64,000 bases of DNA from Jiella endophytica (lineage in GTDB: Bacteria; Pseudomonadota; Alphaproteobacteria; Rhizobiales; Rhizobiaceae), in NCBI RefSeq assembly GCF_004519335.1, contig NZ_SOZD01000004.1, positions 248,001-312,000 of the forward strand. The letters run 5' to 3'. The position numbers and the translations under genes were made by a program. Positions within the stretch are counted from its first letter, which is position 1. Each line of letters starts with the position of its first letter. This document shows positions 13,914 through 20,264 of the stretch, piece after piece. The notes under the pieces were generated by a model. It did not search any database and was not told the origin of the DNA. It was given only the letters and a program-made list of their open reading frames with translations.

Positions 13914-14111
13914 GTCGCGTTCGCCGATGCGGCGACGTTCGGCTCGACGAGCCCGGCACGCCAGCGTGAACGCACAGCGATCGGTGCGGCGAGCCACGGT
14001 GGTCCGGCGCAACCAATGACGGCAGGTGTCAATTTGCCACCCTTTCCCTTGACCGGCAGACTGATCGCAACCATCCTTCCGATCCGTGCCGACGAACCGA
14101 GCGGTGAAACA

Positions 14112-14468
14112 ATGGCCCAGTCCGTCAAACTCTCCGATGAAACCATGGCCCTCATTCGCCGCGAGGCCGAGCTGCAGAGCCGCTCCGTCGCCGGCCAGAT
14201 CACCCACTGGGTGAAGCTCGGCCGGGCAATCGAGCAGTCCGGCGCCTACGACAATGCCCGGATCGTCGCGGCGCTCGAAGGCCGCCTCGACACGATTGAA
14301 CTCAGTCAAGAGGAAGAGGCCGCCTGGCTCGACGCCTTTACGGAGACGATGGGTCAGCCTTCCGAAAGCGAGAAGGCCTTTTTCGCAAAGCGCCGGTCTC
14401 TCGGGCGCGGCGTCGGGCTCGATGCCGGCGGCAATCTCGTCCACGCGGCGGCTCCTACCACTCCATGA
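14112..14468 (+). CDS. ParD-like antitoxin
   Basis: 118 aa. The N-terminal half (VKLSDETMALIRREAELQSR, then SVAGQITHWVKLGRAIEQS) fits the ribbon-helix-helix ParD-like antitoxin family: a beta-strand followed by helices for operator binding. The C-terminal half (LSQEEEAAWLDAFTETMG and onwards) is the presumed toxin-binding tail. The start overlaps nothing; the stop overlaps the zeta-toxin start by four bases (ATGA). Like other antitoxins it probably represses its own operon as a dimer. Confidence 0.85.
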   Translation: MAQSVKLSDETMALIRREAELQSRSVAGQITHWVKLGRAIEQSGAYDNARIVAALEGRLDTIELSQEEEAAWLDAFTETMGQPSESEKAFFAKRRSLGRGVGLDAGGNLVHAAAPTTP

Positions 14469-15052
14469 GGCCGACCCTCGTGCTTCTCGCCGGACCGAAC
14501 GGCGCCGGCAAGTCGACCCTCTACGAGACCCGAGTGGCGCCGAGCTTCGCGGGTCCCTTCATCAATGCCGACCTCATTCAGCGGGACGAACTCGAAGACC
14601 CGTCGATGCAGGCGGCCTACAAGGCCGCCGAGATCGCTGCGGACCGCCGCGACGAGAAACTCAAGAAACGGGGGAGCTTCGCGACCGAGACGGTCTTCTC
14701 TCACCCCTCGAAGCTGGAGCTGATCCGAAGGGCCCGTGATTGCGACTTCCTCGTCGTGTTGATGCATGTCGGAATTGCCGGCGCGGACCTCTCTGTCGAG
14801 CGCGTGAAGGGCCGCACCGAAGAAGGCGGCCACGACGTGCCCGAAGCCAAGATCAGGGCACGATACGATCGCGGCGGGCCGCTCATCCGGGAAGCCGTCC
14901 TTCTCGCCGACAGAGGCATGGTGTTCGACAACTCGGCACTCAACGCACCGCCGAGACGTCTCCTCGTGTTCAGGCGCGGCCATCTCGCCCAGGCGGATGC
15001 GACCCTGCCCGACTGGGTGCTGGCGATCTACGACAAGGATCTGCGCTACTAA
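14465..15052 (+). CDS. Zeta-toxin-family kinase
   Basis: 195 aa. P-loop LLAGPNGAGKSTLYETR at residues about 7-23. Then FINADLIQRDE, in the position of the substrate-binding Asp, and SFATETVFSHPSKLELIRRA, the lid region of zeta kinases. Zeta toxins phosphorylate UDP-N-acetylglucosamine and so block wall synthesis. Overlap with the upstream ParD-like gene supports a toxin-antitoxin pair. The usual zeta partner is epsilon; here the antitoxin is of the ParD-like fold. Confidence 0.87.
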   Translation: MRPTLVLLAGPNGAGKSTLYETRVAPSFAGPFINADLIQRDELEDPSMQAAYKAAEIAADRRDEKLKKRGSFATETVFSHPSKLELIRRARDCDFLVVLMHVGIAGADLSVERVKGRTEEGGHDVPEAKIRARYDRGGPLIREAVLLADRGMVFDNSALNAPPRRLLVFRRGHLAQADATLPDWVLAIYDKDLRY

Positions 15053-15143: not shown

Positions 15144-15890
15144 TCACACCGCCTGGCCGCAGGCCCGGCGGAAGCGCCTGATCGTCTCGGCCATGCCGTA
15201 TTCCAGCGCATCCGCCGTCAGGCCGTGGCCGATCGAGACTTCGGCGAGGGCGGGAATGCGCTCGACCAAGGGCGGCAGGTTGGCGACGGTGAGGTCGTGG
15301 CCGGCATTGACCCCGAGCCCGAGGGACAGCGCCGCATCCGCGGCCGCGCCGAGCCTGTCGATCTCCGCCTCGGCGGCGCGCGGATCGTCATGGGTGCCGC
15401 CATAGGGGCCGGTATAGAGCTCGACCCGGTCGCAGCCGGTCGCGGCGGCGGCCGGCATCGCCCGGGGGTCGGCGTCGGCGAAGAGCGAGACCCGGGCCCC
15501 CTCGCCCTTCAGCCGCTCGACGATCGGCCGCAGGAACGCGCCCCGGCGCTCGAAATCCCAGCCGTGGTCGGAAGTCGGCTGCGAGGGATCGTCGGGGACG
15601 AGGGTCACCTGTTCGGGCTTTGCCGCCGAGACGAGGGCGAGGAACTCGATCGACGGGTAGCCTTCGATGTTGAACTCGGCCTCGGGAAACTCCTCGTCGA
15701 TGAGGGAGCGGATCGCCGGCAGGTCGGAAAAGCGGATATGCCGCTGATCGGGGCGCGGATGCACCGTCAGCCCGTGGGCGCCGGCGGCAAGCGCGATGCG
15801 GCCAAGGCCGGTGACCGAGGGCCAGGGCAAATCGCGCCGGTTGCGCAGCATGGCGACCGCATTGAGATTGACCGAAAGCTCGACCGTCAT
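15144..15890 (-). CDS. pdxJ: Pyridoxine 5'-phosphate synthase
   Basis: 248 aa TIM barrel that condenses 3-amino-2-oxopropyl phosphate with deoxyxylulose 5-phosphate in vitamin B6 synthesis. Signatures: [32 protein letters not shown] (active-site His and phosphate-binding Arg), FNIEGYPS (catalytic Glu) and [14 protein letters not shown], then [17 protein letters not shown] lies about 11 bases upstream of the ATG. It is divergent from the four-repeat protein gene. Confidence 0.96.
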
Positions 15891-16127
15891 CGCTGAAAAG
15901 ATCCTCTCCTGCCCTTTGCGGTGCCCGCGTCCATCCCATGCACCGCCGAGCGACGCAACCGAAAGGGCGGCACCGGAACGAAGGGCCAATCGGGCGAACA
16001 TTTTTCACCCGCCCGCCATGGCAAGGGACAGCGCAAAAAAACTTGCTTTGACGCCCTGCGCGGTTGACTTCCGGCCCGGTCCCCCTTCCTTCCTTGGCCT
16101 GCACGAAATTCCCGGGAGGAAGATTGC

Positions 16128-18257
16128 ATGGGCGGTTCGAACTTCATTCCGATCGTCGTGGCGCTGGTCGTCGGCCTGTTCATCGGCTGGCTGCTCGGCC
16201 CCGACGTCGACGACGTCAGCGACAATGTCGACAAGCAGATCGCGTCCCTCAAGGAGCCGATCGATGCGACTCGGACCGACGTCCAGTCGGTTTCCGACAC
16301 GGTGTCGAGCAAGCTCGACGAAACCGGCAAGAGCGTCACCGATGCCCTCGCCGGCCTGAAGCAGCAGCTCGACCAGATCGGCCAGACCGTCGAGACCAAG
16401 ACGGACCAGATCTCGCAGGCGGTGCAGCCGAAGGACGGCGGCGACAAGACCAGCCAGGGGATCGAAGAGCTGAAGGCCGAGATCGCCAAGCTGCAGGAAA
16501 GCGTGTCGGGCCTGTCGAGCAGCGGCGGCCAGAGCGGCGCATCGGGCGGCGCGTCGGGCGGCGGCGACATGGCCTCGCTGGTCGAGTCGGTCGGGCCGAC
16601 CGGCGCGGTCCTTTTGGCCGGGCAGTCGGCGATCTTCGGCTCGAGCCGGATCCAGGTTTCCGAGGTGTCCGACGGCAGCGCCAAGATCGCCGCCGGCGAC
16701 GGCGAGGCGAAGGACGTCAAGGCGGGCGACAGTGTCGATGTCGGCGACGGCTGCTCGGTGACGCTGTCCGGCGCAGCGTCCGGTGCAGTATTCCTGTCGT
16801 CGAAAGGCTGCGAGGGCGGCAAGGCCGCTTCGGGTGGTGAGGACGCCTCGAAGGGCGGCGGCCAGCAGGCCGCGGCCGCAGGCGGCAGCAGCTCCGGCGG
16901 CGGCAATGACGGCGCCGGCCAGGGCGCCGCCGCAGCAGCGGCGACTGGCGAGGCGGAAGGCCAGTCCGGCGGCGAGCAGAGCGGCCAGGCGGGCCAGAGC
17001 GGCGAGCAGACATCCGCGCAGGGCGGGCAGCAGCAGGCGGCTACGTCCGGCCAGCAGGGCTCCTCTGAGGGCGGCAGCGGCTCCGGCGGCAATAGCGGTC
17101 CGGTGCCGGTGGGCGGCGTCGCGACCTTCGGCGACACCAAGGTCTTCGTTTCGGGGATCACCGACGACGGCGCCATGCTGATGGTCGTCGGCGGCGACCG
17201 CCAGGAGGTCAAGACCGGTTCGAGCATCGATGCCGGCAATGGCTGCAGCATCACGCTGGACAAGGTCGGCGACAATGGTGCCAGCCTGTCGAGCAAGGGC
17301 TGCGACGGCAGCCAGTCCGGCGAGGCGCAGAAGTCGGGCGAGGCGCAGAAGTCCGGTCAGTCCGGCGGCGGCAGCTCCGGCGACAAGGCCGCGGCGGCTC
17401 CGGCTTCGGGCTCAGGCAGCGAAAAGGGTGCGGCGTCGGGCCAGTCCTCGGGCGAACAGCCTGCGGGTGACAGTGGCTCCGCCGGCGGCCAGGCCGCGGC
17501 GGGCGGCAGCCAGGCCGCGGCGGGCGGCGGCGACCAGTCGTCCTCCGGCGACAGCTTCGGCGCCGGCCAGACCGCGGTGTTCGGCGAAAATCGCATCTTC
17601 GTCTCGGGCGTCGAGGACAATGCCGCGACGCTCTTCGTCGTCGGCGGCAAGGGCCGCCAGAGCGTCGAAGTCGGCAAGAGCGTCGACGTCGGCAATGGCT
17701 GCTCGGTGACGCTCGATGCCGTCGAGGACGGCCAGGCGAAGCTTTCGGCAGAAGGCTGCGACGGCAGCGGCCAGGCGGCTTCCGGCGGGTCTGCGGACCA
17801 GCAGCAGTCGCAGCGGCCGGCGGCGAGCGAAGAGAAGGCGCAGCCGGCAGAAGGCGAAGAGAAGTCGTCTGGCGAAGGCGACGCTGCGGGTGGCTCGAAC
17901 GACGCGGCCGCGCAGCAGCCGGCAGAGGCCGAGAGCGGGCAGTCTTCCGGCGAGCAAAACGCCCAGTCCGGCGGCGAGACGGCCGCCCCGGCCAAGGAGC
18001 CGGCATCGAGCGATGCCGCCGCGTCCGACGCCTCCGGCGGGTCCGACGAAGGCACCGCCACCGGCCAGACCAAGACCTTCGGCGATCACAAGGTGTTCGT
18101 CTCGGCGGTCTCCGACAAGGGCGCGACCCTCTACATCGTCGGCAAGGGCCGCGAGGAAGTCGCCAGCGGCAAGTCTGTCGATCTCGGCGGCGGCTGCTCG
18201 GTGAAGGTCGACAAGACCGACGGCGAGAGCGCGATGCTGTCTGCCTCCGGCTGCTGA
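16128..18257 (+). CDS. Membrane-anchored protein with four paired-cysteine repeat domains (unrecognised)
   Basis: 709 aa. One membrane segment (residues 6-24) with no signal-peptidase site, so the rest is probably periplasmic. Residues about 28-127 are helical and heptad-like, predicted coiled coil. Then come four copies of a domain of about 65 residues (about 164-228, 330-392, 479-544, 646-709) separated by Gly/Ser/Ala/Gln-rich linkers of about 85-105 residues. Consensus elements: FG.....FVSGV.D, then LFVVGG....V..G.SVDVGNGCSVTLD and, at the end, LSSKGC. Every copy has two Cys exactly 19 apart (209/228, 373/392, 525/544, 690/709), and the last is the final residue. I recognise no known family. 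GGAGGAAG precedes the ATG. Confidence 0.85.
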   Translation: MGGSNFIPIVVALVVGLFIGWLLGPDVDDVSDNVDKQIASLKEPIDATRTDVQSVSDTVSSKLDETGKSVTDALAGLKQQLDQIGQTVETKTDQISQAVQPKDGGDKTSQGIEELKAEIAKLQESVSGLSSSGGQSGASGGASGGGDMASLVESVGPTGAVLLAGQSAIFGSSRIQVSEVSDGSAKIAAGDGEAKDVKAGDSVDVGDGCSVTLSGAASGAVFLSSKGCEGGKAASGGEDASKGGGQQAAAAGGSSSGGGNDGAGQGAAAAAATGEAEGQSGGEQSGQAGQSGEQTSAQGGQQQAATSGQQGSSEGGSGSGGNSGPVPVGGVATFGDTKVFVSGITDDGAMLMVVGGDRQEVKTGSSIDAGNGCSITLDKVGDNGASLSSKGCDGSQSGEAQKSGEAQKSGQSGGGSSGDKAAAAPASGSGSEKGAASGQSSGEQPAGDSGSAGGQAAAGGSQAAAGGGDQSSSGDSFGAGQTAVFGENRIFVSGVEDNAATLFVVGGKGRQSVEVGKSVDVGNGCSVTLDAVEDGQAKLSAEGCDGSGQAASGGSADQQQSQRPAASEEKAQPAEGEEKSSGEGDAAGGSNDAAAQQPAEAESGQSSGEQNAQSGGETAAPAKEPASSDAAASDASGGSDEGTATGQTKTFGDHKVFVSAVSDKGATLYIVGKGREEVASGKSVDLGGGCSVKVDKTDGESAMLSASGC

Positions 18258-18486: not shown

Positions 18487-18495
18487 CGGCATTCG

Positions 18496-18547
18496 AGCCC
18501 CGTTTGGCTGCGGCGTCCCCGGACGTCGCAGCCAAACGGGGCTTTTT
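18496..18547 (+). terminator. Strong intrinsic terminator in the amiC leader
   Basis: AGCCCCGTTTGGCTGCG (18496-18512) pairs over all 17 bases with 18527-18543. The loop can close further (CGTC/GACG), and the stem runs into TTTTT (18543-18547). It ends 17 bases before the amiC GTG, so it would stop transcription of the amide operon unless antiterminated. Confidence 0.85.
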
Positions 18548-18564
18548 CGTTCAGGGAACTCCAA

Positions 18565-19665
18565 GTGCGACGAAGCGTCGATCTCGGCCTGTTGTTTTCC
18601 CGTTCCGGCAATTACCGGCTGCTTTCCGGCGCCTCCCATGCCGGCGCGCTGGCGGCGATCGAGGCGGTGAATGCCGATGCCGGCCGAACGGTCGCCTTCT
18701 CGCCGGTGGCGCTCGACCCCGAGGGCCGCACCGAGCGCTATGCGCCGCTCTGCGAAGAGATTTTCCGCACCTCCACGGCCCGCCACGTCATCGGCTGCAC
18801 CACCTCCTGGAGCCGCAAGGAGGTGATCCCGGTCCTGGAAAAGCATGGCGGCACGCTCTGGTATCCCTGCCCCTATGAGGGCTTCGAGACCAACGAGCAG
18901 GTGGTCTACATGCATGCCTGCCCGAACCAGCATCTGGTGCCGCTGCTCGCCCATGTCGTGCCGCGCTTCGGCGCCGATGGCTTTCTCCTCGGATCCAACT
19001 ACATCTGGGGCTGGGAGACCAACCGCGTCGCGCGGGACGTCATTCTCGACGCCGGCGGCAAGGTGCTCGGCGAGCGCTACCTGCCGCTCGGCGATACCGA
19101 CGTCGAGCGGCTGATCGCCGAGATCCGGGCGACCCGGCCGGACTTCATCCTGAACAATCTGATCGGCCCCTCCTCCTATGCCTTCTTCGAGGCCTATGGC
19201 CGGCTCGGCGCGGAGGACGCGCATTTCACGCCGGAGCGCTGTCCGATCCTCTCCTGCAATCTCACCGAGATCGAACTGCCGGCGATCGGCCCCTCGGCGG
19301 AAGGTCATCTCTCCGTCGGCCCATGGTTCGCGCCGGCGGGAGCGACGGCCTGCGACGCCTCGTCCTTCTACACGGCGGCCTATTCGGCCGTCCTCGTCCT
19401 CGCCGATCTCCTCGAAGCAGGGGACGCTGCCTCCGCCGATGGCCCCCTCGGCTTTGCCGGCCGCACGTTCCAGACGCCTCTCGGGGCGATCGCCATCGAT
19501 CCTGCCAGCCAGCATGCGCATCTGCCGATCCGCATCGGCCGGGTTCGCGGCGGGCGGTTCGACCTCGTCGAATCGAGCCCGGCCCTCGTCGCGCCGGACC
19601 CCTATCTGTCGCGCTACGATCCGGCCGCACATTTCGGCCGGCCACCGCTGCGGGTCGTCTCATGA
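18565..19665 (+). CDS. amiC: AmiC-like cytosolic amide sensor
   Basis: 366 aa. A type I periplasmic-binding-protein fold without any signal peptide (VRRSVDLGLLFSRSGNYRLL at the start), as in Pseudomonas AmiC, which binds amides and holds AmiR inactive. Conserved blocks: GCTTSWSRKEVIPVLEKHGG, LWYPCPYEGFETNEQVVY and SNYIWGWETNRVARDVI. The start is GTG at 18565 with AGGGAA 8 bases before, just past the leader terminator. The stop overlaps amiR (ATGA), so the two are made in step. It probably senses the amide that FmdA hydrolyses. Confidence 0.88.
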   Translation: MRRSVDLGLLFSRSGNYRLLSGASHAGALAAIEAVNADAGRTVAFSPVALDPEGRTERYAPLCEEIFRTSTARHVIGCTTSWSRKEVIPVLEKHGGTLWYPCPYEGFETNEQVVYMHACPNQHLVPLLAHVVPRFGADGFLLGSNYIWGWETNRVARDVILDAGGKVLGERYLPLGDTDVERLIAEIRATRPDFILNNLIGPSSYAFFEAYGRLGAEDAHFTPERCPILSCNLTEIELPAIGPSAEGHLSVGPWFAPAGATACDASSFYTAAYSAVLVLADLLEAGDAASADGPLGFAGRTFQTPLGAIAIDPASQHAHLPIRIGRVRGGRFDLVESSPALVAPDPYLSRYDPAAHFGRPPLRVVS

Positions 19666-20264
19666 CCCGGCGCGAGCGCATCCCCAATCTCGGCGGCGCG
19701 ACGGCCTTCGTCCTGCATCGCCCGCATCCGGCGACGAGCACGCTGATGCGCCAGCTCGGCGCCATCGGCCTCGATGCGGTGGAAGTCTGGCCGGAGCTTC
19801 CGGCTGAAGCCCTCGGCGCCGACTTCTGCTTCTTCGACGCCGATCTCGGTTTCGACGACCAGTTCCCCTGGAAGGCCGGCGAAGCGCCGATGCCGCTGAT
19901 CGCGCTGATCGGCTCGGAAGCCCCCGGCCGCATCGAATGGGCGCTGGCCCAGGGCGCCGACAGCCATCTGGTCAAGCCGGTCGGCAATTCCGGCATCTAT
20001 GCCGCACTGCTCATCGCCAAACGCGGCTTCGAAGCGCGGCGGGCGCTCGCCGGCGAGGTCGAGAGCCTCAGGGCGCGGGTTTCCGAACGCCAGACCATCG
20101 TCCGCGCCGTCGTCGCCCTTTCGGCCGGCGGCGTCGGCGAGGAGCGTGCCTATGCCCAGCTGCGGGCGCTCGCCATGAGCTGGCAGGTGACCATCGAGGA
20201 CGCCGCCCGCCGCATCGTCGAACTCGAACAGGGAGTGCGCCGTGAGCACCCCGTCGCAAACTAG
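19662..20264 (+). CDS. amiR: AmiR-like ANTAR antiterminator
   Basis: 200 aa. An N-terminal receiver-like domain (about 10-125; FFDADLGFDDQFPWKAGEAP) without a clear phosphorylation triad, a coiled coil (about 128-150), then a C-terminal ANTAR domain (about 150-197; ERAYAQLRALAMSWQVTIED, then AARRIVELE, with the conserved AY..LR..AM). In Pseudomonas, AmiR binds leader RNA and prevents termination until AmiC sequesters it. The leader terminator at 18496-18547 is the obvious target. Its 3' end overlaps the next gene by 23 bases. Confidence 0.88.
   Translation: MTRRERIPNLGGATAFVLHRPHPATSTLMRQLGAIGLDAVEVWPELPAEALGADFCFFDADLGFDDQFPWKAGEAPMPLIALIGSEAPGRIEWALAQGADSHLVKPVGNSGIYAALLIAKRGFEARRALAGEVESLRARVSERQTIVRAVVALSAGGVGEERAYAQLRALAMSWQVTIEDAARRIVELEQGVRREHPVAN

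Follow-up and report, generated by a model that had tools for sequence, protein, structure and literature searches.

The window, the whole stretch of 64,000 nucleotides of Jiella endophytica DNA that we analysed, contains a gene (table 1) encoding an N-terminally anchored string of four domains of about 66 amino acids each. These domains, here called beads, are separated by linkers rich in Gly, Ala, Ser and Gln. A GGGAGGAAG stretch sits immediately upstream of the ATG of this gene, and only about six residues of the protein precede its transmembrane helix. An earlier note on this DNA had described a membrane segment, a coiled-coil stretch and four domains of about 65 residues, with Cys pairs exactly 19 residues apart in every copy and the fourth pair closing at the last residue. 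Both the open reading frame and this anatomy were recovered, as were the Cys positions. The alignment of the four beads has 19 invariant columns; the eight Cys of the protein make up four pairs, each with a spacing of 19, and there is no CXXC pair.

Table 1. Features of the bead gene and its upstream neighbour (positions in the window).
Feature	Position	Strand	Details
pdxJ, divergent neighbour	15144..15890	-	PF03740, E 4.9e-77; ORF extends to 16001, likely start 15890 (Met38)
Conserved block, promoter or regulatory candidate	16033..16071	+	Seen in a DNA alignment of 11 rows (window plus 10 relatives)
Whole bead gene	16128..18257	+	709 aa, stop codon included; ATG at 16128, stop ends at 18257
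N-terminal transmembrane anchor, residues 1-25	16128..16202	+	Glycine zipper A12-xxx-G16-xxx-G20-xxx-G24; transmembrane segment at about residues 7-24
Predicted helical coiled coil, residues 26-130	16203..16517	+	Model helices; 3.5-residue hydrophobic period
Bead 1 (N-type), Cys209/Cys228	16614..16811	+	Cys pair and full-chain model; N-type clade support 1.0
Bead 2, Cys373/Cys392	17106..17303	+	Cys pair and full-chain model
Bead 3, Cys525/Cys544	17562..17759	+	Cys pair; modelled alone and in full chain
Bead 4 (C-type), Cys690/Cys709	18057..18254	+	Cys709 is the last residue; C-type clade support 0.678

Many relatives of the neighbouring pdxJ align only from about residue 36-38, and therefore the open reading frame at 15144-16001 is probably over-long and the start is probably at 15890. 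With this start, 237 bp separate pdxJ from the bead gene. The statements that pdxJ is divergent and that no neighbour explains the gene both stand, but the head-to-head order proved to be conserved at all 20 loci compared (L022-L036 and L057-L061). The downstream AmiC-like gene was found at two of the 20 loci within the flanks compared. The conserved pdxJ arrangement may be simple inheritance; pdxJ belongs to cytoplasmic metabolism and, as a neighbour, suggests no envelope role for the bead protein. The conserved block between both genes carries GGTTGAC in all 11 aligned rows and an A-rich left half in most of them, the row of L026 being an exception. No promoter was found in a scan of this intergenic region with the sigma-70 consensus. 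Genomes lacking the gene were examined at 17 loci for a hidden homologue, and none was found among the three longest ORFs of the roughly 1.5 kb that lie upstream of pdxJ; judged by eye, these ORFs resemble a RecD-like helicase, small proteins of STAS type and others.

Two other arrangements were observed in the window. A 20-pair hairpin (G-T pairs allowed) followed by a T run, at 18496-18543, lies directly upstream of the AmiC-like binding protein gene (18568-19665), which is followed by a gene for an AmiR_N plus ANTAR protein (19662-20264); the hairpin is a candidate ANTAR antitermination site. At 14106-15052, a ParD-like antitoxin gene adjoins a gene for a Zeta-toxin/AAA_33 protein, forming a candidate toxin-antitoxin pair. 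Rfam matches at 17243-17370 and 18491-18548 were under the gathering scores and were not accepted.

The bead protein was found in 13 of 61 whole genomes, including all ten of the same genus (own genome among them). The bead profile matched 22 of the 297 genomes sampled from the GTDB family, belonging to 10 of 109 genera. The order sample yielded a match in the own genome alone (1/297, bead profile at E 0.001), and in the class sample of 289 genomes none fell below E 0.001 beyond the own genome; 12 further genomes of the class sample, at E 0.017-0.094, were taken as chance. A plasmid collection gave no match at E 1e-5. The named relatives, at 15 loci, come from Jiella, Aurantimonas, Fulvimarina, Antarcticirhabdus and an Aurantimonadaceae MAG. 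The protein is thus restricted to one small alphaproteobacterial group in the samples searched; an outlying relative could exist, since the searches cover samples only. In the pdxJ tree, all 20 rows with the gene were placed in one clade of 37 rows, with a printed split support of 0.051, so that a single gain is plausible, not established.

The number of beads varies among the 26 proteins counted, with four beads in 14 proteins, three in seven, five in two, two in one and one in two (L049 and L053 are truncated N-terminally, and for both the whole genomes give the same number). In a tree of 91 beads we sought the split best matching each bead class. Almost all first beads (25/26) fell into one clade with support 1.0, together with four other beads, all from Fulvimarina-type proteins (L030, L034 and L049). 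Another clade, with support 0.678, held 23 of the 24 last beads and one extra bead. Both bead types thus predate the genera compared. L057 and L058, the proteins with a single bead, carry the first bead type and end in bare linker, indicating that multivalency along the chain is not essential in that genus. Their tail is long, rich in Pro, Ala and Gln, and has no bead after it, as if a linker had preceded or outlived a second bead.

Equal Cys spacing within one protein is partly inherited by duplication, and therefore the four pairs of the window protein are not four independent coincidences. Better evidence for a Cys rule comes from the relatives. We counted Cys in 24 proteins (the window protein, L022-L036, L044, L046-L049, L053, L055 and L056), excluding loci that duplicate genomes already represented, as well as both proteins with a single bead. 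All 89 beads detected hold exactly two Cys, a count that covers beads above the profile threshold and that a degenerate, Cys-less bead below it would escape. The spacing is 19 in 85 beads, 17 in three and 18 in one. There are no Cys outside the beads in these proteins, and the C-terminal residue is Cys in 22 of them and Ala in L032 and L033. The one-bead proteins, counted by eye, have one pair each, also with a spacing of 19. Retention of the pair despite the change in spacing to 17 or 18 is as expected if its members are bonded. From this pattern, and from the predicted strand register described below, we infer a disulfide within each bead. The genome encodes DsbB (E 4.5e-31), so that periplasmic disulfides can probably form.

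The claim that the domains are conserved and the linkers diverged was borne out by codon comparisons. We compared seven species pairs of the 45 possible among ten sequences, and these pairs share species. The beads showed no gapped codon in any of the seven, with 264 aligned codons each, as opposed to 41-97 gapped codons in the linkers. NG86 omega was lower in the beads in all seven pairs (0.13-0.49 vs 0.20-0.81 in the linkers), although dS was also higher in the linkers, which points to poor alignment of the linkers. As their omega stays below 1, the linkers are less constrained than the beads without being proven neutral. In the same pairs, the transmembrane anchor had the lowest omega of the four regions.

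The anchor carries the pattern A-xxx-G-xxx-G-xxx-G/A, with a small residue at all four positions in each of 24 N-termini; this is a glycine zipper, a motif for helix packing. In the window protein, the 105 residues after the transmembrane segment show a hydrophobic period of 3.5 residues that none of 1000 shuffles reached. Eight of the 24 proteins were tried, and in seven of them at most 6 of 1000 shuffles reached this period; the exception, L047, has no clear heptad period (76/1000 shuffles). The zipper and the period together point to a parallel oligomer, and an oligomeric anchor is therefore likely, as judged from sequence. Asp-rich residues follow the transmembrane helix, and the short stretch before it is not rich in Asp. 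By the positive-inside rule for the topology of membrane proteins, this fits an N-in/C-out orientation, which would place the beads in the periplasm.

The description of the repeats as beta modules with paired Cys was supported by structure prediction. Bead 3, modelled by AlphaFold2 with an alignment of 63 beads, is all beta (pLDDT 94.7, pTM 0.81), with eight strands at residues 2-4, 8-11, 14-21, 25-30, 36-40, 44-48, 51-59 and 62-68. The last two strands and their two-residue turn bring residue 51 (the first Cys) opposite residue 70 (the second), at the end of the last hairpin. This opposition is read from the register at 59-62 carried outwards, and is thus a register and not an S-S distance. 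The AlphaFold2 model of the full-length protein shows the four beads as confident separate units, mostly with pLDDT 90-96, and linkers mostly under 50. Its helices at 31-65, 70-98 and 106-130 are of low pLDDT, as is the transmembrane part, and with a full-chain pTM of 0.33 the model gives no confident prediction of how the beads are arranged. The earlier note had proposed both predictions; the bead model does not place the two Cys far apart, as read by register.

The bead itself looks like a doubled unit of about 35 residues. The two halves of its profile, which share one column, align over 33 columns with 27% identity and an hhalign score of 18.4, the highest score among 200 column-shuffled controls being 12.9; hhalign itself gives the match a probability of 6.6% (E 0.0015), and the control is lenient because column shuffling also breaks strand periodicity. 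Independently of the profile halves, the predicted strands of bead 3 recur at an offset of 34-37 residues.

The earlier note had also considered the domain unlike any known family, and named a confident match of the single domain to a described family as evidence to the contrary. Separate profile searches gave no such match. No single bead of the window protein reached a curated Pfam family, the sole line being bead 1 with Lyx_isomer at E 0.33, below the cut-off, and the 63 beads together gave 20 Pfam families at E up to 1, with a best E of 0.016. In NCBIfam, beads 2, 3 and 4 alone gave none, and bead 1 was scanned only within the whole protein. Of the 25 Pfam lines listed for the whole protein, 23 lie on the coiled coil (residues 24-131) and two on bead 1 (Lyx_isomer, E 0.76; Cupin_2, E 7.1), and all 15 NCBIfam lines lie inside residues 30-134; every one is below the cut-offs. 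The best PHROGs value among the 63 beads (E 0.021) was rejected as chance, as was the best tblastn match of bead 3 in phages (E 3). The best match of the bead profile among sequences of solved structures (E 0.52) was likewise at chance level. None of the titles and abstract openings found in a literature search names the bead protein, which does not show its absence from print.

The uniqueness claim thus stood for sequence, since no curated family matches the bead, but not for the fold. A Foldseek search of BFVD returned one significant viral match, the unnamed A0A6G5YD98 (TMq 0.83, E 6.3e-4), the only one below E 0.001. A weaker match is A0A6J5RUQ1 (TMq 0.77, E 0.18), annotated as carbon storage regulator of an uncultured Caudovirales phage. 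Both match the whole bead, with which they are likened by fold alone, but they are short proteins of 96 and 114 residues. Four BFVD proteins with similar accessions (A0A6G5YD98, A0A6G5YEX0, A0A6G5YE82 and A0A6G5YEE9), of 61-96 residues, match either the whole bead (TMq 0.83 and 0.81) or about half of it (0.44 and 0.42), and may form a viral set in which the unit is either single or doubled. In the libraries searched, therefore, the sequence family is undescribed, while the bead fold has relatives.

Our preferred reading, to which we give a probability of about 40%, is that the bead protein is an oligomeric periplasmic tether anchored in the inner membrane. Confidence in the anatomy of an anchored bead string is far higher than in this function. 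The features expected of such a tether are present as predictions from sequence: a transmembrane anchor, a coiled coil and separate folded modules (the transmembrane and coil parts of the model being of low confidence). The zipper helix and the coil that follows it would gather several chains into a parallel bundle, from which each chain would extend one to five small beta beads on flexible linkers of Gly/Ser/Gln/Ala or Pro/Ala. Each bead, a predicted duplication of the ~35-residue unit with its last hairpin clamped by one disulfide, may serve as a docking module, the beads together binding multivalently to a repeated target in the envelope, for which peptidoglycan or a component of the outer membrane would be the likeliest candidate. 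Reach and avidity would then depend on how many beads there are and how long the linkers are. TolA is an inner-membrane-anchored periplasmic tether with an N-terminal transmembrane segment, a helical stalk and a folded part beyond it. Tethers of this type share that plan with the bead protein, which differs in having several beads on disordered linkers and no energising partner seen beside the gene.

More tentatively, the protein may be a new envelope device of one alphaproteobacterial lineage, in which a zipper/coil bundle carries a string of disulfide-stapled, pseudo-twofold beads. Such a string would have arisen by two rounds of duplication, from half-unit to bead and from bead to string, would use a fold known otherwise from small viral proteins and, by a weak match, from an S-layer domain of an archaeon, and would act as a tunable periplasmic tether or ruler.

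The protein could instead be an extracytoplasmic sensor or ligand-binding receptor, with beads that recognise a small molecule or a glycan and with the zipper and coil relaying the oligomeric state. That the bead classes are distinct and old speaks for specialised beads. We consider a sensor or receptor unlikely, as the six or so residues before the transmembrane helix leave the protein without a cytoplasmic output domain, and the only conserved neighbour tested, pdxJ, does not encode a regulator.

A structural protein of the surface or matrix, with beads packing against each other or their neighbours as S-layer beta domains do, is less likely still. It is suggested by the best Foldseek match in the PDB, 3u2g, an S-layer domain of Methanosarcina acetivorans (DUF1608, PF07752), which matched bead 3 with prob 0.99, TMq 0.71, rmsd 3.8 and a non-significant E of 0.35, and came first again with the full-length model (E 0.8, also not significant). 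Like the bead, this is a beta module of an envelope protein occurring in tandem copies; it differs in its 274-residue chain and has no sequence match to the bead. According to a review, tandem DUF1608 domains form the Methanosarcina S-layer, and its beta-sandwich folds resemble viral proteins (PMC5744192). A search of the own genome with PF07752 gave nothing at E 0.001, and the positive control was found in Methanosarcina acetivorans. Four of the 63 beads also touch the Pfam model S_layer_N (PF05123), with a best E of 0.016 that is at chance level for 63 queries and is equalled by Big_6. All segments measured are neutral or acidic, in line with a surface protein, but the transmembrane anchor puts the protein on the inner membrane.

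The strict two-Cys rule would suit a redox device, in which CX18C pairs alternate between the thiol and disulfide states to report or buffer the redox state of the periplasm. This is very improbable, because the window protein lacks a CXXC pair, the Cys on opposed strands at the end of a hairpin resemble a structural staple, and Gly, Phe, Ala, Asp and Leu account for most of the other invariant or near-invariant positions of the bead.

Just as doubtful is a kinship with the RNA-binding fold of CsrA, by which the protein would be an exported relative and each of its beads a pseudo-dimer of CsrA type. CsrA is a cytoplasmic RNA-binding dimer, unlike the bead protein. The likeness to CsrA/RsmE (PF02599) is a local beta meander, with RsmE aligned by Foldseek over 29 columns at 1.3 A (E 1.5), to which add the phage protein named carbon storage regulator and a PDB profile hit at E 0.67. 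Profile comparison with ten CsrA sequences (hhalign, 200 shuffles) was not significant, with 8/200 shuffles scoring as high for the whole bead, 14/200 for the C half and 59/200 for the N half, and this assembly has no match to CsrA.

Whatever its target, the tether that we favour belongs to a lineage-restricted envelope protein with a repeated domain that has no match in the curated families searched. Its relatives, with one to five beads, provide a natural set in which repeat number and linker length can be set against envelope spacing or adhesion. The bead is a compact beta module, apparently stapled by a disulfide, and its fold may link surface proteins of bacteria, viruses and archaea.
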